A DNA stretch of 64,000 bases from Chloroherpetonaceae bacterium (GTDB lineage Bacteria; Bacteroidota; Chlorobiia; Chlorobiales; Thermochlorobacteraceae). The translations under genes were made by a program, and so were the position numbers. The notes below the pieces were generated by a model, which saw only the letters and a list, made by a program, of their open reading frames with translations, did not search any database and was not told the DNA's origin. The stretch is from the NCBI GenBank assembly GCA_033763895.1, contig JANRJQ010000011.1, positions 1 to 64,000 on the forward strand, read 5' to 3'. Every line of letters starts with the position of its first letter. Position 1 is the first letter of the stretch. Below are positions 1-10,957 of the stretch, piece by piece.

Positions 1-128
1 ACACCTTAAAGGCGTCATACATCGCGCTGAAAGAAGAGTATCAATCTTTATCAGTAAAAAGTGATTTCACTTTTTGGGTTGGGGTTGCGGTTGTGGTACT
101 GGTTCTATTTTATCTTTTTGGAAGGTGA
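1..128 (+). CDS. C-terminal fragment of a membrane-anchored protein
   Basis: Only the last 41 codons are inside the window. They are read in the third frame from base 3 and stop with TGA at 126-128. The fragment has a charged, helical-looking stretch (LKEEYQSLSVKSD) followed by one strongly hydrophobic segment (FWVGVAVVVLVLFYLFG) and a single terminal Arg, so the protein ends in a membrane anchor. The next gene starts two bases later, so it is probably part of the same tail operon. Family unknown; a tail-anchored phage protein such as a spanin or holin-like component is possible but not shown. Confidence 0.55.
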   Translation, partial: TLKASYIALKEEYQSLSVKSDFTFWVGVAVVVLVLFYLFGR

Positions 129-130
129 CT

Positions 131-550
131 ATGTGGGATGGAAGCCGAAAGGAAATTATTGATGCGGCACTTCAAGCTTTAGTAAACCTGAATGCTTCAG
201 TATCTGCACTGCCTGATAATCCCGATGAACCTCTTTCGCATTCGCGTGGAGATGTCCGTGTTTTTTGGGGCGGGTTTGTTCGTGATGGTGAGAATTTTGA
301 GCCCACAAAAGTAACAAAGCGTATAAGGCTTTTTGTGAATGTGCGCGCGCACGGGCTGAGTAGCGATGAAAGCTCTGTCTATGAGCTGCTTGATGAAGTT
401 GAGTCGGCAATGTTTGGCTATGAAGTACATCGAGCGCCATTCATCCCTGTTGACGAAACGGTCGTTTATAACTTCCAAAAAGCCTACTGGGTTGGGATAC
501 AAGAATATGAAATCATCTTAGACCAATTTTCAATTAATTCAACTGATTAA
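131..550 (+). CDS. putative phage tail completion protein (Gp37/DUF1834-like)
   Basis: 139 residues from the ATG at 131, preceded by a GGAAGG ribosome-binding site. An upstream in-frame start at 74 would run through the end of the preceding gene and gives a low-complexity Gly/Cys/Trp leader, so I reject it. The layout resembles the Mu gp37/DUF1834 family: a short helical start, then RGDVRVFWGGF near residue 40, a strand with KRIRLFVNVRAHG, a helix YELLDEVESAMFGY, and a closing strand YWVGIQEYEIIL. Such proteins cap or terminate the tail tube. Its place directly before a tube-like protein agrees. The family call rests on pattern memory only and needs a profile search. Confidence 0.5.
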   Translation: MWDGSRKEIIDAALQALVNLNASVSALPDNPDEPLSHSRGDVRVFWGGFVRDGENFEPTKVTKRIRLFVNVRAHGLSSDESSVYELLDEVESAMFGYEVHRAPFIPVDETVVYNFQKAYWVGIQEYEIILDQFSINSTD

Positions 551-555
551 AAAAA

Positions 556-1311
556 ATGCCAACAACAATCAATTTCACTACGGATAGCAATAACCGTAGA
601 AGCCGTGAGCTCCAACGCAGAAGCCCAAAAACCTCAAGGTTATCGTTTGCGCCGGTAAATGCTACGACCGGTGCTTTACAATCGGGTGGGGTTAATCCAT
701 ACACTGCATCACCGGCAGCTTTTAGTGCAAATACCTATTTCGGTTTGGGCTTTCTGACTGATAAAATTCAAGTTCAACCCGCTAATCGTGATATTGTTTC
801 AAAAGATATTGGTGGGAAAAACATATCTGTGGCCACGGAAACTGATGCTGTTAACCTTTCGGTAACATTACTTCAGAACCCGGTTGAGCTTTGCCGTGCC
901 AACCCTAATACACGCTTCCAGTTCATTGCCCCAATGGCGGAGCATAATAATTCTCTACCATTAATTGATGTGGTTGCAATTGGAATCGGAAAGCTACCCT
1001 ATACACCGGCATACGAAACAAGTCAAGAGTTTCATACTTACCCAATCACGATTATGAGTGAGGTGAATACTCAAGCAATTAATATCACTTACCTCCAGCT
1101 CGCCGCCGCGCTCGATTTAATTTCGCGGCGTACCGGAACAAATCGTATTACAGCAAGAAAGTACAATGGACTTACCCCTGTTCAGGGTTCTGATTTGGTG
1201 ATTGTAACATCGACCGATAGTGATGGAGCGGATGCCAACGCTGTTGCACTCACCATTGCAGAGGGAGAAATGGCGGCATTTGGGACATTTCTTTTTGAGA
1301 TAAAGGCTTAA
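556..1311 (+). CDS. putative phage tail structural protein (tube-like)
   Basis: 251 residues, starting five bases after the preceding stop. No signal peptide or membrane segment. The protein is rich in beta-prone and Asn/Thr/Ala segments. Its N-terminus is basic and disordered-looking (residues 1-30, RRSRELQRRSPKTSR) before a folded domain. I do not recognise the family. Position between a tail-terminator-like gene and the large adhesin-like tail protein, and a size typical of tube subunits, suggest a major tail protein. An alternative is a head-tail connector or minor structural protein. Confidence 0.4.
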   Translation: MPTTINFTTDSNNRRSRELQRRSPKTSRLSFAPVNATTGALQSGGVNPYTASPAAFSANTYFGLGFLTDKIQVQPANRDIVSKDIGGKNISVATETDAVNLSVTLLQNPVELCRANPNTRFQFIAPMAEHNNSLPLIDVVAIGIGKLPYTPAYETSQEFHTYPITIMSEVNTQAINITYLQLAAALDLISRRTGTNRITARKYNGLTPVQGSDLVIVTSTDSDGADANAVALTIAEGEMAAFGTFLFEIKA

Positions 1312-1316
1312 GCATT

Positions 1317-3716
1317 ATGAACCCTTCGCAAAACTACGCTTCGCTTCTTCGTGATAAGGTCAATGTACTTTATCGCGGGGGAGCGAAGGTTTTTTTTGCT
1401 CAAAACACAGAACAAGCCTCTTATTACGATATCGGGTTCCAAAGCGATTTAATTGTTACAGCTGAAGCGGCAACCCGTCGCGATTCGAAAGGCCGTGAAG
1501 AAGTCCGGTATTATGATATTTCGGTTGCAATTACACTTGCGCAAACATCGGATACTGAGAGGGCAATTATCGCCTTTGCTGCGGCTAATTTGAGTAAAGT
1601 CCTGATTCAATTTGAAGTCAAATCTGCTTCCAATATCAATAAAGAGAAAATTGAATTTCTTTCAGTTAAACTGATACCAACCGATCAGATTAAAGTTGGT
1701 GTTGAATCCCGCTTGACTTTCCGCTTTACGGAGAGAATGAGGCCTGCGGTTTATCTCTCGAAGTTTAAATATGAAAGCTTACCCTCACTTTCTCTTATTT
1801 CGCCATCACAAGCGCTCGTAGATAGCGCTGCTTCAGTCGCATTTTCTTGGCAGTCACTTTCGGGATACAGTCAATACCGCTTAGAGGTATTCTTAAATGA
1901 ATCACTTACAGAAACGTCTTTTAATGGTGTTATAAACGGCACAACACATTCACTGAGTTTACAGCAAGGGCTCAGGTACTGGTGGCGTGTAACGGCTCTT
2001 GCACCGGATATTTCGCTTCAGGATGTGGTTTCGGGTGTTCGGTTTTTTACAACATTTATTCAATCGCCAAGTTTTGTAAGCCCTACGCCTGCCGATCTAT
2101 CAACAGACGTCCAGATTGGCAATATCATAATAGGATGGCCGGCTTTGGTAAACTTTCAAAATGCAACCGGGTTCGATTATGTCGTAAGTTTGAATAGCAC
2201 CTATACAAACATTGTGTTACAAGGCAATGACGTAACCATTAATGAGATTGTGGTTCAAAATGAAAGCTTTGGTGTGATGTACTATGTTCGGCTGCGCGTT
2301 CGTTCGGCTTTTGCTGTCTCTACTTATGTTACAAGGCAATTTCAAGTTGAGCAATTTGGCGTTGCCGAGTTTCAGTCTTCAGATGATAGAATTGGAGATG
2401 GAGCAGAGCTAATTACAGAACGGTATGTTGAAATTAAACGCGATATTCGGGCAACTTCATATTCGGTTGAAACATCGGCTGTTGGGGGCTTTGGCCAACC
2501 AATCACAGAATTCTTAGTTTCAAGCCCTCCGAGTAATCAGCCAAATGTAACCCCGAAATTCTTGCTTGAATACGATCAAATAAATTCAGATTTGAACGGC
2601 AATTTTGCGATTAGAGTAACAAAAATTCGAGGTTCAAATAAGTCTGTTTCGCTAAGTAGATCACTTAAAAAAGTAACTCCATTTTCTTGGCACAATCTTA
2701 CTACGCCAAGTAAAAATGTTTTTGGATTCCAAAGATTGTCAGGTCTTACGGTATCAATTGCAAATAATACGACGAATAATGTACAGGGTTATCATTCGAG
2801 TAATTCTCGTTTAATAACAGGCGTTAACACATCGGTATTGGCGTCTCTTGCAAAAGTAGGTGAGTTTGTTTCTTTTCAAGCTGGAGGTACAACGCCGCGC
2901 TTGGTTGTGTGGAATGATAACGGTGCCGGAAATCAAATTATAGTTGAAGGAACAGAAATTACCACTGCCGCCGCCGGATTCAATGTTTATTTTTATTCTT
3001 TAACAAATGACACTTTTTCGCTTTCACAATCTACCATATCTCAACAGCCGAGACGCAGATTAATCACGGCAGGTCTAAGCGGTTTTAATCCTAACGCTCA
3101 ATTCTATCTTTCAGAACACTCAGGGAATAATCAAAATCTTTCAAATACAAGTACATCGCTTTCGTTTAACAAAGGGAAAAAAGCAGCTTTAGTTTTAATG
3201 ATTGCTTCTATTTCGAGTTTTGGAAGTAGTTCTTTAACAACATTATTTGAGCACGTTAAAACAAATGGTTCTAATGTAACGGTTTTGGATTACTCGATAC
3301 TTGTAAATGGCAGTGCAAGACTTATAATGAGAAAGGATGCGAACACAACAGAATCATTTAAAACTTTAGAAAGTAGCCCATCTCAATTACTTACTGCATC
3401 TCATAATCTTAAGACATTTGTGTTTGGTTTTGATATTAGTAGAATAGGTGTAAAATTGATTAATAGAGTGAATGGCGTCAATTTGACAAGTTCAACTGGT
3501 GATGTTGAAGGGCTTAGCGGTGTGTCTGATAACTCTCAGAATTTCAGATTATCACTTGGCGGAGATAACGCTACGACTTTTGGTGCAAATTCTGTAAAGC
3601 AAATTGCTGAATGCTTTATTGTTGAAAATGATAGTTACATTTCTGATCAACTTATTACATCATTTGAAAGGTATGCAAAGGACAAATATGGTATAACTTT
3701 AGGGAGTATTAACTAA
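1317..3716 (+). CDS. large modular tail protein with Fn3-like repeats and a LamG-like tip
   Basis: 799 residues. Residues ~1-150 form a compact domain with tube- or baseplate-like strands (VGVESRLTFRFTERM). Residues ~155-345 hold two fibronectin-III/Ig-like repeats (PSQALVDSAASVAFSW...YRLEV; PTPADLSTDVQ...). From about residue 450 the protein becomes Asn/Ser/Thr-rich and more AT-rich. It closes with a concanavalin/LamG-type ending (IAECFIVEN...LITSFERYAKDKYGI), which is common at the end of phage and surface lectin domains. I infer a tail protein whose C-terminus binds host surface glycan. Its stop overlaps the next start (TAATG). The N-terminal function is uncertain. Confidence 0.5.
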   Translation: MNPSQNYASLLRDKVNVLYRGGAKVFFAQNTEQASYYDIGFQSDLIVTAEAATRRDSKGREEVRYYDISVAITLAQTSDTERAIIAFAAANLSKVLIQFEVKSASNINKEKIEFLSVKLIPTDQIKVGVESRLTFRFTERMRPAVYLSKFKYESLPSLSLISPSQALVDSAASVAFSWQSLSGYSQYRLEVFLNESLTETSFNGVINGTTHSLSLQQGLRYWWRVTALAPDISLQDVVSGVRFFTTFIQSPSFVSPTPADLSTDVQIGNIIIGWPALVNFQNATGFDYVVSLNSTYTNIVLQGNDVTINEIVVQNESFGVMYYVRLRVRSAFAVSTYVTRQFQVEQFGVAEFQSSDDRIGDGAELITERYVEIKRDIRATSYSVETSAVGGFGQPITEFLVSSPPSNQPNVTPKFLLEYDQINSDLNGNFAIRVTKIRGSNKSVSLSRSLKKVTPFSWHNLTTPSKNVFGFQRLSGLTVSIANNTTNNVQGYHSSNSRLITGVNTSVLASLAKVGEFVSFQAGGTTPRLVVWNDNGAGNQIIVEGTEITTAAAGFNVYFYSLTNDTFSLSQSTISQQPRRRLITAGLSGFNPNAQFYLSEHSGNNQNLSNTSTSLSFNKGKKAALVLMIASISSFGSSSLTTLFEHVKTNGSNVTVLDYSILVNGSARLIMRKDANTTESFKTLESSPSQLLTASHNLKTFVFGFDISRIGVKLINRVNGVNLTSSTGDVEGLSGVSDNSQNFRLSLGGDNATTFGANSVKQIAECFIVENDSYISDQLITSFERYAKDKYGITLGSIN

Positions 3717-4018
3717 TGAAGGTAAGGTTTGATAGTTACGAAGAAGCTAATGCGTACAATGAAAAAGCGTTTGAAGCTTTACTAAGGATAAGAGCTTCAT
3801 TCTTTGATAACAAGCTTTTTAAGCTAACTACTAATTCAATTGAGGATATTTCAAATCTAACTCAATCGGAGCTATGCGCATTTCATGAAGGTAAGAGGGT
3901 TTTCCCGCTTTTGGGTTATCAAAATGGAAAGCTGAATAAGTATGAAGGTTTTACGGAGTATTGGGATACTGTAATTGAAGTGGACGGAAAATTCGAAGTA
4001 AATTTTTTTGAAGAATGA
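3716..4018 (+). CDS. small protein downstream of the tail lectin, possible fibre chaperone
   Basis: 100 residues, cytosolic-looking and acidic at the end (VEVDGKFEVNFFEE). It overlaps the previous gene by one base and the next by four (ATGA), so translation is coupled on both sides. It is as AT-rich as the 3' half of the lectin gene before it. No family recognised. In many phages a receptor-binding protein is followed by a small dedicated assembly chaperone. The position and the shared composition suggest that role here, but nothing in the sequence proves it. Confidence 0.45.
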   Translation: MKVRFDSYEEANAYNEKAFEALLRIRASFFDNKLFKLTTNSIEDISNLTQSELCAFHEGKRVFPLLGYQNGKLNKYEGFTEYWDTVIEVDGKFEVNFFEE

Positions 4019-5127
4019 ACACATCAGAAAACTTCATCCCTATCACGCGCATCTTGCTTGCGCTTACCTACCAAGGCTCGGTTATTTCTTTTGATTTTAC
4101 AGACACATTGCAAAACGCTTTTTACAGAAAGGAAGCTTTACTCCATACAACCCCAAGCGGTTCATCAAGCTCTGGTCATTTCAAGGAGTTTATAAACTTT
4201 GAACTACCCAAAGCCACACACAAGAATTTTTCAGTCTTAAACCTTTCTCTTTCTCATATTACGGCAACGGTTTACTTTGATGCTGAAACCTCAGGTAACA
4301 ACAACATTGTCTTTGATGACCTTACGATCTCTTCTTTAACTCATAAGAATGAGGAAGGAGAGTCACTTCTTTCTGTTGAGCTTTCACGTGTAATTGACGG
4401 TGATGGAACGCCCATTGCCGGAGACATCGTTTGGATTCGTCGTGAGATTGTCAATGGGCAAACCACAACCTTTGAAGATATAAAGCTCAAAGCCGTTGAA
4501 TTAAATGACGGAATAGAATTTGATCAGAGCCCGTTTGAATCCCTTTCAAGAACGAGGTATCGGCGAGTGCGCGGTTTTCGCCGCACCTTCCGGATTAAGT
4601 TCGCACCCCTGGAAGGTTCTAAGCGACTCGGTTTAGGCCGATCTCTTGAGGCGGCTCTACTTCAGCAAACGATACTTGTAAAAGCGTGGAATATATTCGC
4701 GGAAAGCGAAACGATTGATTACAACTACCTTACTCCGGGATCCAGTGGATTTCGGCGCCTTTTAATTGAAAATGATGATATTGAAAAGGAATCCGTCATT
4801 GAAAAGCTTGTTACTGGCAAAGGGTTTACCTTGAGTTTTGTAGATGCTTCTATACAAACTTCTTCTTTAAGCTCTTACAATGCGCCTACCTTAATTTATT
4901 CAAATCCCACTGTTACCTTAACCACTAACCTTGAAGGGGTTGAATGCCGATTTTTTGTGCTCGATGATTTGGTGTGGAAGCGTTTTACTACACCATTGGG
5001 GTATGTTGCAAAAACGGAATCTAACGGTGCTTATAGTTTTTCTTCGCCATTAGGAACAAGTATCACTAAGCTTAAAGCAGTAACAGCTCTTGGGACAGAT
5101 GTAAAGGAGGTGACGATTAATGTTTAG
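4015..5127 (+). CDS. phage structural protein of unknown family
   Basis: 370 residues, starting in an ATGA overlap with the previous gene. No signal peptide or membrane segment. It has a beta-rich N-terminal half, a basic patch near residue 185 (RTRYRRVRGFRRTFRIKF) and an Ig-like C-terminal part from about residue 295 (YNAPTLIYSNPTVTL) ending in a beta-rich strand. The position between a lectin tail protein and another large structural protein suggests a distal tail or baseplate component. I cannot name the family. The following gene overlaps by eight bases. Confidence 0.45.
   Translation: MNTSENFIPITRILLALTYQGSVISFDFTDTLQNAFYRKEALLHTTPSGSSSSGHFKEFINFELPKATHKNFSVLNLSLSHITATVYFDAETSGNNNIVFDDLTISSLTHKNEEGESLLSVELSRVIDGDGTPIAGDIVWIRREIVNGQTTTFEDIKLKAVELNDGIEFDQSPFESLSRTRYRRVRGFRRTFRIKFAPLEGSKRLGLGRSLEAALLQQTILVKAWNIFAESETIDYNYLTPGSSGFRRLLIENDDIEKESVIEKLVTGKGFTLSFVDASIQTSSLSSYNAPTLIYSNPTVTLTTNLEGVECRFFVLDDLVWKRFTTPLGYVAKTESNGAYSFSSPLGTSITKLKAVTALGTDVKEVTINV
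5103..5112 (+). promoter_or_regulatory. strong Shine-Dalgarno (AAAGGAGGTG) for the gene at 5120
   Basis: AAAGGAGGTG lies seven bases before the ATG at 5120 and inside the end of the preceding gene. It is nearly the full anti-SD complement. Most neighbouring genes lack anything comparable, so this site fixes the downstream start and suggests high translation of that tail protein. Confidence 0.7.
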
Positions 5128-6883
5128 CGTAACTCAAATAGAAGGCCCAGCTTTTTTTTCAATGGGGTTTGCAAGTGAAGTTGTTTTTGATGTCAGGGAA
5201 AACGGGGTTGTAATTCCTCCGGCATTTTTACCCGGACCGTATCCTGAGGTTACGGTCGTCTCTAAACCCGGTTGGATTTCATTTTTTCAGCCTTCTCCGG
5301 GTTCTCTCCTCGATACGTACTATGATGTCTCTTTTTTCTCCCTTACAGGAACTCCTCCCTATTCAACAGATTCTACTTTTACTGTTGTTGTAAATGTGAG
5401 TTTTGATGGAGATGATGAAGATATTACGCTTCAATTCTCGCTTAAATCAACAAGGCTTACGGCTTCTATTCCTAAGAACGGGAATACCGTGACAGCTGAA
5501 TTGCGCTTTAAGATTAATACCGGTATCACTGGGGCGGTTAACTCTCAAAACTTGTTTGAGTTATTAGAATGGAAAGGTATTGCTGAAAGGGAGTATGGAA
5601 AGAATACCGCTAAACCTGAGCCGACGCCTTTTTTATTTCTCTCAACACTTCGCATAGAGCTTGAGTCACTTTTGAATACGAAAGAGGTTTCACGTGAGCT
5701 TTCTAATGCCTTTAAGATTATTGAAAGCGTTGTTTATGTAATCAATGGTCAGGTGATATTTGAAGGTAATTTGACACTTGAATTCAGCTCACAGAAAAAT
5801 CTTTCCTTAACCCTTCAATTTGAGAATGGTATTCGCCGTAAACTCGATCGCCGGGTCAGAGATAGTGAAGGCAATATACTTTCTTTGCAACCCTTTAATC
5901 TGCCTCCTGTTACGGCGAATGGTGGGAGAGAATACTTGCAGTTAAAACCTTTGTTTGAAAACCTGCTCTCATATTTAGTCGGTAGATCAATTACAATTCC
6001 TTCAGGGCTTTTCTATAACCAATTTGGCCGAGTTGAAGCATCATATTCAGGCCTTGTAGTTAACCTCGCATTTAACAATAACGATTCTTACTTCCTTTAT
6101 CACGGCCCAAACTTTGAGCCTCATTGGGCTTATGGTTGTGAGACAATTGAAGATGTTCTCAATTACCTTTGCGCCATTCTGGGTCTCACTGTTGGATTCG
6201 ATACTGATGGCCAATTCTTTTTGAAGTCCAAAGTTTTGACTACCCCAATTGCCATTAACGAGAATTTATTGGAAGTCGAATTCGCGAAAGAGTATGTCAC
6301 AAAAGCGAGATCGATTGCCATTGAGGGTATTTCTGTTGTGCTTGATTCAAATAATTTGGTTGTATCAGTGGATAAAAGATTGGCTTTTGGTAATGGCGGA
6401 TCATATCCTCGTACTGTAGCGTTTTTTAATGGGGATTACTCAAGTGTTCCGAACGTATTATACGACGGCGGCTTATTTGGAGAATTGCAACATCAAGAGT
6501 TTACCGAAGAGATTACTATAAAAACCCCATTTCAATTGAAATTTCAAGTTCCCGGCCACAATGCAGACATTGGCCTTCAGTATAACAGATATAGAGAGTG
6601 TTCTGTGAACGTCGATAATGGCGGATTGATTAGCGGGATTATTGCTTATAGAGTTGATACAGTGCCTTTATCTCTACCTAGAATCATTTTCGAGCAATAT
6701 CTCAATCAAGAGAGACCTCGTATTTCAGTAACGCTTAACGCGAAGTCGCAATCGTTTTTATTTAGGGAAGTTTACCAAGCTGGTGACTCTGAATTTGCTG
6801 CAAACGGAACAAATTTTAATCTAATCTACGCTCGCATTGATGATGCAAATGACGAGATGAAAATCAAACTCATTGAATTCTGA
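5120..6883 (+). CDS. large phage structural protein, probable tail hub or baseplate component
   Basis: 587 residues with a strong SD. It starts eight bases inside the preceding gene. Residues ~1-120 look like an Ig/cadherin-type beta domain (VTVVSKPGWISFFQPSPGSL...FTVVVNVSFDGDDEDITLQF). The rest is long and mixed, with a segment around residues 330-370 (HWAYGCETIEDVLNYLCAILGLTVGFDTDG) that resembles the nested hub domains of phage baseplate proteins. No membrane segment. The stop overlaps the next start (TGATG). The family was not recognised. A tail hub role is inferred from size, position and this short similarity. Confidence 0.45.
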   Translation: MFSVTQIEGPAFFSMGFASEVVFDVRENGVVIPPAFLPGPYPEVTVVSKPGWISFFQPSPGSLLDTYYDVSFFSLTGTPPYSTDSTFTVVVNVSFDGDDEDITLQFSLKSTRLTASIPKNGNTVTAELRFKINTGITGAVNSQNLFELLEWKGIAEREYGKNTAKPEPTPFLFLSTLRIELESLLNTKEVSRELSNAFKIIESVVYVINGQVIFEGNLTLEFSSQKNLSLTLQFENGIRRKLDRRVRDSEGNILSLQPFNLPPVTANGGREYLQLKPLFENLLSYLVGRSITIPSGLFYNQFGRVEASYSGLVVNLAFNNNDSYFLYHGPNFEPHWAYGCETIEDVLNYLCAILGLTVGFDTDGQFFLKSKVLTTPIAINENLLEVEFAKEYVTKARSIAIEGISVVLDSNNLVVSVDKRLAFGNGGSYPRTVAFFNGDYSSVPNVLYDGGLFGELQHQEFTEEITIKTPFQLKFQVPGHNADIGLQYNRYRECSVNVDNGGLISGIIAYRVDTVPLSLPRIIFEQYLNQERPRISVTLNAKSQSFLFREVYQAGDSEFAANGTNFNLIYARIDDANDEMKIKLIEF

Positions 6884-7341
6884 TGACAAAGGAAATAACT
6901 GCTTCTTTACTTAATGCTCCGATTTTAGTAGGAGAAAAATCCTATTTAATGCAATCGCCAACGGTAGATCGCCTTGCGGTCTTTATGTCTCACTTACGCA
7001 TCGATGACATTTCTCAGTTCAATTCAGCTGAGGTGAACGCTCGTTTAACTTTGTGCTTTGACGGTGATAAACAAAAGTCAGCTGATTTCTTGAATGGGCT
7101 TATCGTTGGGCAAACACCAGTTGAACCCGATGAAATTGATGGTGTTCTTCTTAGAGAAGTTGCTGTATTTTTTTTTATGCTGTGTGCAGAGAAATCGAAT
7201 CTACTCGAGTATTACAGAAGAAGTATGAGAAAATTAGTCGGGCAATTGGACGCGCTTTTGAATCAGCTTACGGTTACAACGAAAAGGAAGTCCAAATCAA
7301 AAGCGTCAAAGAGCAGGCGTGGGAAGAACTCTCGCAGGTAG
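6883..7341 (+). CDS. tail assembly chaperone, short (G-like) form
   Basis: 152 residues in the zero frame. The gene sits just before the tape measure, the conserved position of lambda G and its analogues. Residues 1-98 look like a folded acidic domain (MTKEITASLLNAPILVGEKSY...LLREVAVFFF). After a run of nine T the zero frame continues into a low-quality Lys/Ser/Arg-rich tail (TKRKSKSKASKSRRGKNSRR). The -1 frame instead encodes a well-formed helical extension. This is the arrangement of siphophage chaperone pairs, in which most product is the short form. The basic tail may be real in the short form or largely incidental. Confidence 0.65.
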   Translation: MTKEITASLLNAPILVGEKSYLMQSPTVDRLAVFMSHLRIDDISQFNSAEVNARLTLCFDGDKQKSADFLNGLIVGQTPVEPDEIDGVLLREVAVFFFMLCAEKSNLLEYYRRSMRKLVGQLDALLNQLTVTTKRKSKSKASKSRRGKNSRR

Positions 7342-7445
7342 AGAAACTTTATGTTTTGAGTGGGGAATTTGATGAGATGAAGATTTCTGAAGTTTTGAAA
7401 AGGGGTTTTTATAAACGCATCAAATCCCTATTAGAGGGTGGTTGA
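7155..7445 (+). CDS. tail assembly chaperone, frameshift (T-like) extension
   Basis: This frame lies at -1 relative to the gene starting at 6883. It is open from the stop at 7152-7154 to TGA at 7443-7445. If ribosomes slip on the T9 run (7168-7176), the product is ~98 residues of the G domain followed by ~89 residues of extension: YAVCREIESTRVLQKKYE..., then a helical region ending SEVLKRGFYKRIKSLLEGG, about 187 in all. The extension looks like a true protein, unlike the zero-frame tail. A GTG at 7182 could in principle start it separately, but no SD precedes it. In lambda the T part recruits the tape measure, and the tape measure gene follows here. Confidence 0.6.
   Translation, partial: RSCCIFFYAVCREIESTRVLQKKYEKISRAIGRAFESAYGYNEKEVQIKSVKEQAWEELSQVEKLYVLSGEFDEMKISEVLKRGFYKRIKSLLEGG
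7168..7176 (+). promoter_or_regulatory. candidate -1 ribosomal frameshift site (T9 slippery run)
   Basis: Nine T in a row begin exactly on a zero-frame codon boundary (TTT TTT TTT ATG). The heptamer T TTT TTT allows both tRNAs to re-pair after a -1 slip. It lies 14 bases after the -1-frame stop at 7152-7154, so it is in the only interval where a productive slip can occur. No clear downstream stem or pseudoknot was identified by eye. Transcriptional slippage on the same run is also possible. Confidence 0.55.
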
Positions 7446-7449
7446 ATTA

Positions 7450-7632
7450 TTAGAAACCTCTACGGATTTTCCTTAGTTCTTCAGTGGTGTCTTCATTCTT
7501 ATCATTTAAGAAGCGATACAAAAAATAAACCAATAAAATGGGAGTAGTTAAGAAGAAAAAAAATATACCTAAAGCGGGAAATATTACAACCGCAAAAATC
7601 ATTAAGACCCAAAGAAAAGGATTGTTTTGCAT
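7450..7632 (-). CDS. possible 60-residue membrane protein, antisense to the tail operon
   Basis: 60 residues. Two close hydrophobic stretches (residues ~7-26 and 28-40, rich in Phe/Leu/Ile) are followed by a charged tail (NDKNEDTTEELRKIRRGF). The frame fills the gap between the chaperone gene and the tape measure almost exactly: its stop is four bases from the chaperone stop, and its ATG abuts the tape-measure ATG back to back in CATATG. The composition looks like a real small membrane protein, perhaps holin-like or a phage accessory gene. Against it, no SD is visible and the tape-measure leader lies inside it. Confidence 0.45.
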   Translation of the reverse strand: MQNNPFLWVLMIFAVVIFPALGIFFFFLTTPILLVYFLYRFLNDKNEDTTEELRKIRRGF

Positions 7633-10329
7633 ATGAAAGAAGCTAAAGTTAAAATTGGAATAGATGCAAGCAGTTCGAGCGCATCAACCGCGTTAAAGCA
7701 ACTTAGCAAAGATTTTGATGTATTGAAAACGAAAATTTCCTCGCTTTCGATGCCAACAACCGATTTTAATGAGTTGCAAAACAAATTTCAAACCATTCAT
7801 AAAAGTTTAAGTGAAATAAGCAATCAATCAGGTAAAACAAATGTATCAATGATAGACTTAGCAGCCTCTGCGGCTACTGTTGGTGCCACGATAACCGGTT
7901 TGCTTCAACATTATCAAGGTCTTATTGCTATCTCTCGTGAGTATGAAATGGCTGCAAGGAAATTGGAAGCATCCTCAAAGCTAACGGGTGTTTCTTTTGG
8001 TTTATTGGAAGATACTGCTTCCACAGCTGAGAAAAGGTTTTCTTTGAGTCGCAAGGAGGCAAATGAACTAACAGCTTCAATTTCAAAGTTAGCCTCAAAA
8101 GCAGGTGAAGCCGCGAAAATCAACGAGTTATTTGGCCGTGTCCTTGACCTTTCCGCAGCTCAAGGTTATAACGCTGAGCAGGCGATGGTTGCTCTTAGTC
8201 AGGCTATTCTTGGTATTGATGAAGGAACAGATAAGTTCTTTCAAAAAAATCCATCGACAATATATTCGGAGTATGCTGCCCAAATAAAGAAGAGCGCTGG
8301 CGCTTTAACTGATCAAGAGAAGGCTCAAGCTTTGGTAAATGAGTTTATGACACAAGGAGAAAAGGTGAATGGCCAATACTCGTTATCTCTTCAGACTGCC
8401 GCGGGTAAACAGAAACAGTTTTCAGTCGAAGTTGAGAAGTTTTCCGCCCAAGCAGGTAAAGAATTTGACGTGACTTTAGGGAGAATTCTTGGAGTGATTA
8501 ATCCTCTTATGTTAGCTATAAATCAAGCCCCTGATTCACTTAAAACTTTTGCATCTTCGGTTATTATACTGACTGGTTCAATCTATGCGTTAAATTTAGC
8601 TCTAACTAGTTTGAGAGCCGCAATGGCGGCAAGTGGTGTCGGCTTGATTCCATTGGCCATTGGTTCGGCTGGTTCAGCAATTATTGCTTTAGCCGGTTCT
8701 TATTCAAAGCTTTCATCGGAAATGGAACAAGTTGAAAGGATTTCAAATTTAACAGGTAAATCTTACGATGTCGAATTAGCGCGACTAAAAGAGAAGCAAC
8801 CTGTTCTAGCCGATATTGTAGAGAAAACTAGGCAATTGGCTGATGCAAAAGAAAGATTAAAAAAAATAGAGGATGGCGAAGCGGTTGGATCGGTGAAAGA
8901 AGAACAAAAAAACATTTCAGACCTTGAAGCCGGAATTTTAAAGGGTAAGGATTCGGTTGATCGCATTAGAATATTAAAAGAGAGTAAGTCTTCGAAAGAA
9001 AAGGAAATCTCTGAATACCAGCAATCTGTAAATCTTAATAAAAGCAAACTTCTTTCAGACGGACTCTCTCAATCTGAAAAAGAAGAACTTAATGGAAAAA
9101 TTAATAATGCAAATTACTTCATTTCCCTAATTGCTAGAAATATTCAAGATATTGACAGAGAGATTACCTCGCTTACTCCCAAAAGAAAAATGGTTTCTAA
9201 AGAACTCCTTGTAGAGTCAACTGTCGAACCTTCAGTTTTAGAAAAAATTGATGAGGAAATTCGAGAATTGACAAGGAAACAGGAGAAAGAGACTTCGCCG
9301 AAATCAAGTAGAGCGATTCGTAATAGAGGTCTTTTGCTTAATGCAATCCAAAAGAGACAAAAACTCCGGCAGGTTTTAGGTTTAGAAACGCCTTCTCAAA
9401 AGAAGGATTCAACTATTTCAATTAAAGCTGCATTTGATACAAGTGATTTTGATGAACAAGCTTGGATTGAATTGCAATTGGGGTATGATGTAAAGGAAGT
9501 TCAGGAAAGGCTTCGAAATAGAATGCAAATTTCTGATGCTTTTAAGAGAGTGGATAAAAGTCAAGCCTCTAGTGATTATCGGTATTCCTTTAATCGATCT
9601 TTACAGTCATCATCCTCCAGACTTGATTTTTCGGCTGTTACTGGATTAAGAGATAAAGAGCTTCAACGAGCTGATGAAGCCAAGCGAAATGAAGATGTTG
9701 AAACATACAGGGAGGCTCTTAACCTCGCGCGAGAAGCATCTCAAGAACTTGTTAATATGTCTGACCGTATTTCTCAGAACTCTGAGCAGATTAAGCTTGT
9801 CTTTTCAGACATTGCATTGAGTTTCGGGGATTCAATTTCTAATGAATTATTCCGTACAGGCACCATAGCCAAAATGCAATTAGGCAATGCTCTTGGTCAG
9901 GTCGCGTCAAACTTTGGCCAAAGGCTATTGGCTGAACTTATCCAAAGGGGTATTTTGAAGCTTTTAACAATGATGGTTGGCGGCCCTCTTCCAGTTGCTG
10001 GCGGATTAATTTCGGCTTTAGGTTTTTCTGAAGGCGGTCGTCCGCCTTATGGCAGAGTTTCTATTGTTGGAGAGAAGGGGCCTGAATTGCTTGTTGGGGG
10101 TTCAAATTCGCGTGTGGTTTCTAATAAAAATGCATCTTATGAGCTTCCTAAGATACTGGGTTCATTAATGCCTCAAGGTTCGTCTATTTCATTCGATTCA
10201 GAACCGTTGCTTGATGAGTTGCGGAGTACAAGAAAAGCTATACAGAGAAAGTCTTTTAATGCAGAGCTTGATGGTGTAGAATTAAACCGTCTTTTAGACC
10301 GCCGTAAAGGCCTTGAAAACCTTCGATAA
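7633..10329 (+). CDS. phage tail tape measure protein
   Basis: 898 residues from the ATG at 7633; a TTG two codons upstream is less likely. A Ser/Thr-rich start (KVKIGIDASSSSASTALKQLSKDF) leads into long heptad-like helices. Hydrophobic segments lie near residues 300-360 (VIILTGSIYALNLAL; IPLAIGSAGSAIIALAG), followed by a Lys/Glu-rich coiled coil at ~370-690. A Gly-rich segment near residue 780 precedes the signature found near the end of many tape measures (GGRPPYGRVSIVGEKGPELL). It sets tail length and is injected with the DNA. It is the last gene of the operon here, which is unusual because distal tail genes normally follow. Confidence 0.85.
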   Translation: MKEAKVKIGIDASSSSASTALKQLSKDFDVLKTKISSLSMPTTDFNELQNKFQTIHKSLSEISNQSGKTNVSMIDLAASAATVGATITGLLQHYQGLIAISREYEMAARKLEASSKLTGVSFGLLEDTASTAEKRFSLSRKEANELTASISKLASKAGEAAKINELFGRVLDLSAAQGYNAEQAMVALSQAILGIDEGTDKFFQKNPSTIYSEYAAQIKKSAGALTDQEKAQALVNEFMTQGEKVNGQYSLSLQTAAGKQKQFSVEVEKFSAQAGKEFDVTLGRILGVINPLMLAINQAPDSLKTFASSVIILTGSIYALNLALTSLRAAMAASGVGLIPLAIGSAGSAIIALAGSYSKLSSEMEQVERISNLTGKSYDVELARLKEKQPVLADIVEKTRQLADAKERLKKIEDGEAVGSVKEEQKNISDLEAGILKGKDSVDRIRILKESKSSKEKEISEYQQSVNLNKSKLLSDGLSQSEKEELNGKINNANYFISLIARNIQDIDREITSLTPKRKMVSKELLVESTVEPSVLEKIDEEIRELTRKQEKETSPKSSRAIRNRGLLLNAIQKRQKLRQVLGLETPSQKKDSTISIKAAFDTSDFDEQAWIELQLGYDVKEVQERLRNRMQISDAFKRVDKSQASSDYRYSFNRSLQSSSSRLDFSAVTGLRDKELQRADEAKRNEDVETYREALNLAREASQELVNMSDRISQNSEQIKLVFSDIALSFGDSISNELFRTGTIAKMQLGNALGQVASNFGQRLLAELIQRGILKLLTMMVGGPLPVAGGLISALGFSEGGRPPYGRVSIVGEKGPELLVGGSNSRVVSNKNASYELPKILGSLMPQGSSISFDSEPLLDELRSTRKAIQRKSFNAELDGVELNRLLDRRKGLENLR

Positions 10330-10379: not shown

Positions 10380-10411
10380 CTTGCAAATAAGAAAATCGCG
10401 TTTTATCTTTG
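10380..10411 (+). promoter_or_regulatory. candidate Bacteroidota-type promoter for the tandem RNA
   Basis: cTTG at 10380-10383 and TATCTTTG at 10404-10411 are separated by 20 bases. The second box matches TAnnTTTG exactly; the first matches three of four bases of TTTG. A start near 10418 would place the first structural stem at the very 5' end of the transcript. Confidence 0.5.
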
Positions 10412-10417
10412 TATTAA

Positions 10418-10575
10418 CGATGACAAATACTTCACGCCTTGTGAAGTATGAGGTGTGGATGGGGGACGCACCTCGTCATCTTTAGTAACAAAGCCTATAC
10501 GCCTTGTATAGGTTGGTAGACGGTGTGGGGGACGTCTATCTGTTACGCCCGGCAGGCTTGCCTGCCGGTTTTTTT
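10418..10575 (+). ncRNA. structured RNA: two tandem three-way junctions with conserved loops, family unknown
   Basis: Copy 1 (10419-10480): P1 GATGAC/GTCATC; joint AAA; P2 TACTTCAC/GTGAAGTA with loop GCCTT; joint T; P3 of 8 bp (10450-10457 with 10467-10474, one G-T pair) with loop GATGGGGGA; then directly P1'. After a TTTA linker, copy 2 (10485-10546) repeats the plan: P1 GTAACA/TGTTAC; joint AAG; P2 CCTATAC/GTATAGG with loop GCCTT; joint TT; P3 of 8 bp (10515-10522 with 10533-10540) with loop GTGTGGGGGA. Stems differ in sequence yet stay paired; loops are the same. That is covariation within one molecule. A promoter-like site precedes it and an intrinsic terminator follows, giving an RNA of ~158 nt. 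It could be a small RNA, a tandem riboswitch-like leader, or a phage RNA. Confidence 0.7.
10549..10575 (+). terminator. intrinsic terminator of the tandem RNA
   Basis: CCGGCAGGC (10549-10557) pairs with GCCTGCCGG (10560-10568), nine G/C-rich pairs closing on a CTTG loop, followed by seven T. It starts two bases after the second junction closes, so it ends the RNA cleanly. Confidence 0.9.
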
Positions 10576-10957
10576 ATTTTAAATCAAATTTTCTCCCCAA
10601 TCACAGCGCTTACCATTTTCACCCTTTTGATTCCCGTCGAAACATGTCAATAAGATGATCGGAGAGTTTCGTCAAGTCAAGAATAGGGTATTGAATTACT
10701 AATGATGTTGTGATTTGACAATAATCGCGTGGATTCTGCGTTCAAGTTTGTATTTTTGCACCCTATTTTTCACAACCAACAAGTTTGTGAATCATTCCCC
10801 TTCAAAGAATGGACTAGGAAATGAATCAATCGTTTTGGTGTGGAAATCAGGAAATTTGGTCTTAACAGTGACAATTCTCGATGATTCTTTTTGAAAAGGT
10901 CGCGATCAGTGGTAAATGCGCTTTGGTCATCGGATATTGGGTTTGAATCAATCAAGC
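10576..10957. other. non-coding stretch between the RNA terminator and ileS
   Basis: No convincing open frame on either strand. A TATTTTTG box at 10751-10758 and a TTGACA at 10715-10720 could belong to an ileS promoter, but the spacing between them is wrong for a pair. A weak hairpin TTCACAA/TTGTGAA lies near 10769-10793. No T-box features were seen. A prophage attachment site could lie here but no repeat was found inside the window. Confidence 0.5.

Follow-up and report, generated by a model that had tools for sequence, protein, structure and literature searches.

We found that two structured RNA units in tandem are carried by a 64,000-nt stretch of DNA (the window) from a Chloroherpetonaceae bacterium (contig JANRJQ010000011.1). 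Sequence comparison indicates that they are a real and well-supported structured RNA, which is a divergent, previously unrecognised branch of the known family Chlorobi-1 (Rfam RF01696) and not a new kind of RNA. The locus is very likely a stand-alone gene for a small RNA (sRNA) of ~157 nt with two tandem units, in a family that includes Chlorobi-1, and we infer that this RNA acts in trans through its loop L3. An initial annotation had already observed a tandem structured RNA at this site, and that overall observation stands.

Two three-way-junction units in tandem

Read from the sequence, positions 10419-10546 of the window are composed of two tandem 62-nt three-way-junction units on one plan: P1 of 6 bp, one or two A, P2 of 9 bp, P3 of 8 bp with a loop ending in TGGGGGA, and no joint back to P1. 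The stems of unit 1 and unit 2 differ in sequence yet are compensated, and the loops are common to both. The features are given below with scores of the covariance model R2, which was built from 13 units, including units 1 and 2, of three non-Chlorobiaceae families (f1, the window's family; f2; f3).

10419-10480, + strand: unit 1, three-way junction; RF01696 match at 10424-10490; R2 63.9 bits, E 1.7e-13
10419-10424/10475-10480, + strand: unit 1 P1, GATGAC/GTCATC, then AA
10427-10435/10441-10449, + strand: unit 1 P2, ATACTTCAC/GTGAAGTAT, 9 bp; loop GCCTT at 10436-10440
10450-10457/10467-10474, + strand: unit 1 P3, GAGGTGTG/CGCACCTC; loop GATGGGGGA at 10458-10466
10485-10546, + strand: unit 2, three-way junction; R2 73.9 bits, E 3.3e-16
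10485-10490/10541-10546, + strand: unit 2 P1, GTAACA/TGTTAC, then A
10492-10500/10506-10514, + strand: unit 2 P2, AGCCTATAC/GTATAGGTT, 9 bp; loop GCCTT at 10501-10505
10515-10522/10533-10540, + strand: unit 2 P3, GGTAGACG/CGTCTATC; loop GTGTGGGGGA at 10523-10532

The MFE fold of each unit alone gave the same three-stem plan (-30.8 kcal/mol for unit 1 and -25.3 kcal/mol for unit 2). Compared with 200 dinucleotide shuffles, the z scores were -5.8 for unit 1, -3.4 for unit 2 and -6.1 for both together, and none of the 200 shuffles was as stable as either unit. Two units of about 62 nt on one plan, with differing but paired stems, had been described in the initial annotation, and both the sequence and the MFE folds bear this out. 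The three-stem plan was also correct, but P2 has 9 bp instead of 7-8 bp and the separate joint placed between P2 and P3 is absent from the MFE folds. Identity of the loops holds between the two window units but not across relatives, in which L2 varies while UGGGGGA of L3 is kept. The window's genome has a single locus of the RNA; a DNA similarity search of this genome returned the site itself and chance-level matches.

Relationship to Chlorobi-1

At the curated gathering cut-offs, Rfam gave no match in the window. When the region was searched permissively against Rfam, Chlorobi-1 ranked first, aligning over the whole model (1-67) at 10424-10490 with 24.2 bits (E 2.4e-4), so unit 1 falls below the RF01696 gathering cut-off of 50 bits. 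Detection was reciprocal, however. The covariance model R1, built from the two window units alone, found Rfam-located Chlorobi-1 copies in other families, with E values down to 7.7e-8 in Chlorobiaceae (e.g. L211). R2 also found the Chlorobiaceae copies, and RF01696 found sub-threshold copies in f1 and also the copies of the sister families. The copy in genome G009 passes the RF01696 cut-off (52.9 bits) and was detected by R1 with E 2.3e-8; immediately downstream lies its tandem partner, a unit closed by P1, which scores 61.3 bits with R1. The window units also have the traits of Chlorobi-1, namely hairpins with loops GCC(n) and UGGGGGA, covarying stems and a terminator directly downstream. From these comparisons, the window RNA is judged to be a divergent homologue of Chlorobi-1 below formal Rfam membership. 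The earlier statement that no known family has this combination of features is therefore withdrawn. A match to a known Rfam family had been named in advance as evidence against novelty, and one was found, though only below the cut-off; the covariance model from the two copies, proposed at the same time, did find homologues with stem covariation.

Chlorobi-1 was proposed in 2010 by Weinberg et al., in whose table it is rated as a certain RNA that is probably not cis-regulatory and probably no riboswitch (PMC2864571).

Distribution and conservation

Of 395 genomes from the phylum searched with R2, 49 gave matches. They comprise all nine genomes of f1, both of f2 and the only one of f3 (these 12 being the non-Chlorobiaceae genomes of the order), 36 of Chlorobiaceae (f4), and one marginal case elsewhere. 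Copies in G003, G004, G007 and G002:C8 were recovered by R2 though they lie outside its training set. The marginal match (G271:C14:23115-23175, E 0.003) belongs to another family of the phylum, outside the order. In a pattern scan of named genomes, 2 of 55 records contained true copies, Chloroherpetonaceae bacterium PL23b_bin.36 and Thermochlorobacteriaceae bacterium GBChlB, both of the order; the other 53 resemble chance matches, the best having 22.6 bits. A loop-pattern scan of relatives stayed at chance level, with a similar result for the reversed control. Computation thus indicates that the RNA is restricted to the order of green sulfur bacteria and sister families. Over half of the Chlorobiaceae genomes lack a copy above the RF01696 cut-off, so the RNA is not essential in this family. 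In some Chlorobiaceae genomes, many weak RF01696 matches crowd together in runs on a single contig; these sub-threshold matches were excluded from the counts.

The stems covary across relatives. In alignment A3, which contains 15 units and was made blind to structure, two-sided changes were found at 17 of 21 pairs and 94% of cells pair; the covariation score was 0.714 versus 0.07-0.20 for slid structures. In a fitted alignment of 13 units, 18 of 22 pairs had two-sided changes. Because the rows of A3 were picked for having P1, support for P1 comes instead from a direct count: P1 of at least 5 bp is present in 15 of 19 units of f1-f3, versus 0.78 expected from shuffled flanks. In Chlorobiaceae, P1 is nearly absent (at least 5 bp in 3 of 45 copies). 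Two-unit tandems occur in G003, G005, G007, G008, G009 and G012, and in some of these a terminator-like hairpin separates the two units. In L226 and L227 (about 1500-1575), a run of T directly follows the P1 stem, so that in these copies the three-way junction may act as its own terminator. The closing P1 stem, the recurrent tandems and the promoter difference described below are new relative to the Rfam model.

UGGGGGA of L3 was kept in all 13 rows of the covariance-model set; it was also kept in every copy of the structural search, but GGGGGA was required there. L2 occurs as GCCC, GCCA, GCCTT, GCCCT and ACCCT, and as GCAA in four Chlorobiaceae copies. Pairing between L2 and L3 had no covariation support across the aligned copies. 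The suggestion that the GCCTT and GGGGG loops could pair with each other is therefore not supported, and L3 is unchanged in some copies with GCAA in L2.

Promoters and terminator

The Bacteroidota-type promoter has the consensus TTG-N19/20-TAnnTTTG. The following signals flank the two units.

10381..10411, + strand: Bacteroidota-type promoter, TTG (10381-10383)-N20-TATCTTTG (10404-10411), ending 7 nt before the first P1 base
10549..10575, + strand: intrinsic terminator, hairpin 10549-10568 (CCGGCAGG-CTTG-CCTGCCGG), then seven T

The promoter matches the consensus at 9 of 9 positions, and none of 200 shuffles was as good; the promoter scan found no E. coli sigma70-type promoter at the site. The promoter-like site noted in the initial annotation is therefore present but of the Bacteroidota type, and it has the same placement before the copies of relatives. 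The same arrangement precedes the copies in G003, G004, G005 and G007, and a weaker one those in G001 and G010; overall, copies of f1 and f3 match at 8-9 of 9 positions, and those of f2 are less clear. The strong terminator described right after the RNA was confirmed, and a terminator lies directly downstream of the RNA in relatives as well. The promoter would start transcription at the first P1 base or an adjacent one, and the expected transcript is ~157 nt, from 10419 to about 10575.

A sigma54 -24/-12 promoter (TGGCAYR-N4-TTGC) precedes 41 of the 44 Chlorobiaceae copies; it lies 14-27 nt before P2 and agrees with the sigma54 consensus at 9 or more of 12 positions (shuffle mean 7.0). Perfect sites occur only four times in 2.0 Mb of G028: at three Chlorobi-1 copies (G028:C1:1700054-1700600; the Chlorobiaceae copies are L168-L215) and before one nifH-type gene, the first 100 residues of whose product match Fer4_NifH. 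The window copy and families f1-f3 lack a sigma54 -24/-12 promoter. An RpoN gene was found in all 61 genomes searched, so the promoter difference between families is not explained by absence of sigma54. Expression in Chlorobiaceae is very probably sigma54-dependent. This control would need an enhancer-binding protein and is plausibly tied to nitrogen status or stress, in Chlorobiaceae only; since the window's family lacks these promoters, the link to nitrogen is not transferable to the window copy. In the window's family, the primary sigma factor seems to control the RNA. No earlier report of sigma54 promoters at Chlorobi-1 was found in the literature covered, which included few subscription journals and yielded the 2010 paper and otherwise unrelated work. 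The promoters in Chlorobiaceae, as perfect as that of the nifH-type gene, are the first lead found to the regulation of Chlorobi-1, and this lead makes function testable in culturable Chlorobium, with an rpoN mutant or a nitrogen shift.

Proposed function

The small RNA reading offered in the initial annotation is likely, given stem covariation, homologues, and an own promoter and terminator. Computation provides the conserved structure, the Chlorobi-1 homology, the restriction to the order, the promoter and terminator signals and the differing neighbours; transcription, action in trans and the role of L3 as contact site are inferred. We suggest that the RNA is transcribed independently and acts in trans. 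The stems would be a scaffold presenting the invariant loop UGGGGGA to its partner, either a protein or a conserved RNA, and tandem or multiple copies would provide each cell with more binding sites. Expression would be driven by sigma54 with an enhancer-binding protein in Chlorobiaceae and by the primary sigma factor in the window's family. Our tentative proposal is an order-wide regulatory RNA in which UGGGGGA, held on the junction, may dock a protein or a conserved RNA; its Chlorobiaceae members may share sigma54 control with nitrogen fixation.

A specific version of the trans action is an antisense-type sRNA, in which loop UGGGGGA(C) would pair with UCCCCCA in target mRNA leaders. The invariance of one loop heptamer while the stems drift is consistent with such pairing, and there are sRNA families driven by sigma54 whose members pair with mRNAs. 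However, over 2.0 Mb from a Chlorobiaceae genome that has three copies, UCCCCCA was found in 10 of 1655 5' regions, which does not stand out among 42 same-letter permutations, and intergenic UCCCCCA ranks 33rd of the 42; start sites in this one-genome test were crudely predicted and targets could be few. On this evidence, antisense pairing seems rather doubtful.

CsrB/RsmZ-type sRNAs have repeated hairpins with GGA in their loops and differing stems. A decoy of this kind, titrating CsrA, was considered since GGA is in the apical loops and several copies occur per molecule or genome. It is very improbable, because the CsrA family was found in none of 31 genomes of the order searched and known CsrA sites have another loop context than L3. 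A decoy for a protein other than CsrA is possible. The Chlorobi-RRM leader, a possible RRM-protein site, was tried as sharing a protein site with Chlorobi-1 and was rejected, as it is without a GGGGGA loop and the two have no common loop. Because neither pairing with UCCCCCA nor CsrA titration found support, a protein or a conserved RNA remains as the partner that L3 would dock.

Genomic neighbours

In the window, the first gene downstream of the RNA on its strand is ileS, and between the RNA and the ileS start lie the terminator and then ~340 nt. In f2 genomes, the RNA adjoins nurA-domain genes (L206:8595-9734, L204:9060-10313), and sequence similarity shows a gene order like this nurA side in G002 and G006 of f1. 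TauE is beside the RNA in another f1 genus, and in Chlorobiaceae one to several copies lie in the gap from mdh to agmatine deiminase. Relatives thus have nurA, TauE, mdh or pfkB-type genes next to the RNA, which is often directed away from these genes. Variation of the adjoining genes from genus to genus favours a stand-alone gene, and in view of the promoter and terminator signals the RNA may be a stand-alone transcript that is not cis-regulatory.

The position of ileS had suggested a cis-acting tandem riboswitch or sensor in the ileS leader. This is highly unlikely: the terminator and ~340 nt separate the RNA from ileS, the relatives' RNA is beside unrelated genes, often facing away, rather than in the 5' UTR of homologous genes, and the authors' scores for Chlorobi-1 speak against both cis-regulation and a riboswitch (PMC2864571).

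Upstream, at 74-10329, is an ORF block resembling a phage tail module, which ends 90 nt before the RNA. It includes a tape-measure-like protein of 900 aa (7627-10329) with the stretch VSIVGEKGPELLVGG near its end. The block matched no PHROGs family and none of 50,697 phage records; the only homologues found lie on two contigs of G003 and on a further contig of the window's genome. The closeness of this module favoured a phage-borne RNA (for packaging or anti-defence) or a mobile-element end, which is hardly credible because all 11 other non-Chlorobiaceae genomes searched in the order have copies, next to ordinary genes wherever the surroundings were inspected, the other regions with tape-measure homologues (G003, G000:C3) are without a copy, a viral-contig loop-pattern scan (at least 120 stretches) had none with the structure among the matches listed, and the window's genome has the single locus, which merely adjoins the module.

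Comparison with known systems

Purine riboswitch-type RNAs have a P1/P2/P3 junction with two capped arms, which is common to the window units. The window RNA differs from them in that it has no Rfam match at gathering level, no L2-L3 covariation and no consistent downstream gene, and in that it is probably a stand-alone gene with a terminator. CsrB/RsmZ decoys resemble it in their repeated GGA-loop hairpins on differing stems, whereas it has a single GGA loop per unit and belongs to an order in which CsrA was not found in the 31 genomes searched.

Chlorobi-RRM (RF01697), another structured RNA of the same group from the same paper as Chlorobi-1 (PMC2864571), is without the GGGGGA loop, was confined to Chlorobiaceae within the genomes searched, and had no homology to the window RNA.

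Chlorobi-1 shares with the window RNA a pair of neighbouring hairpins, with CACGCC..GTG capping P2 and a P3 loop ending in UGGGGGA, as well as a following terminator, a probable stand-alone gene and the order of green sulfur bacteria. An sRNA family that Rfam recognises mainly in Chlorobiaceae is hereby extended to every searched family of the order. The Rfam model of Chlorobi-1 has no closing P1 and no tandem, whereas the window has units with P1, two per predicted transcript, so that a closing stem and a tandem form are added to the family. Chlorobiaceae copies have sigma54 promoters, whereas the window copy has a Bacteroidota-type promoter. This sRNA therefore keeps its structure while its promoter class differs between sister families.
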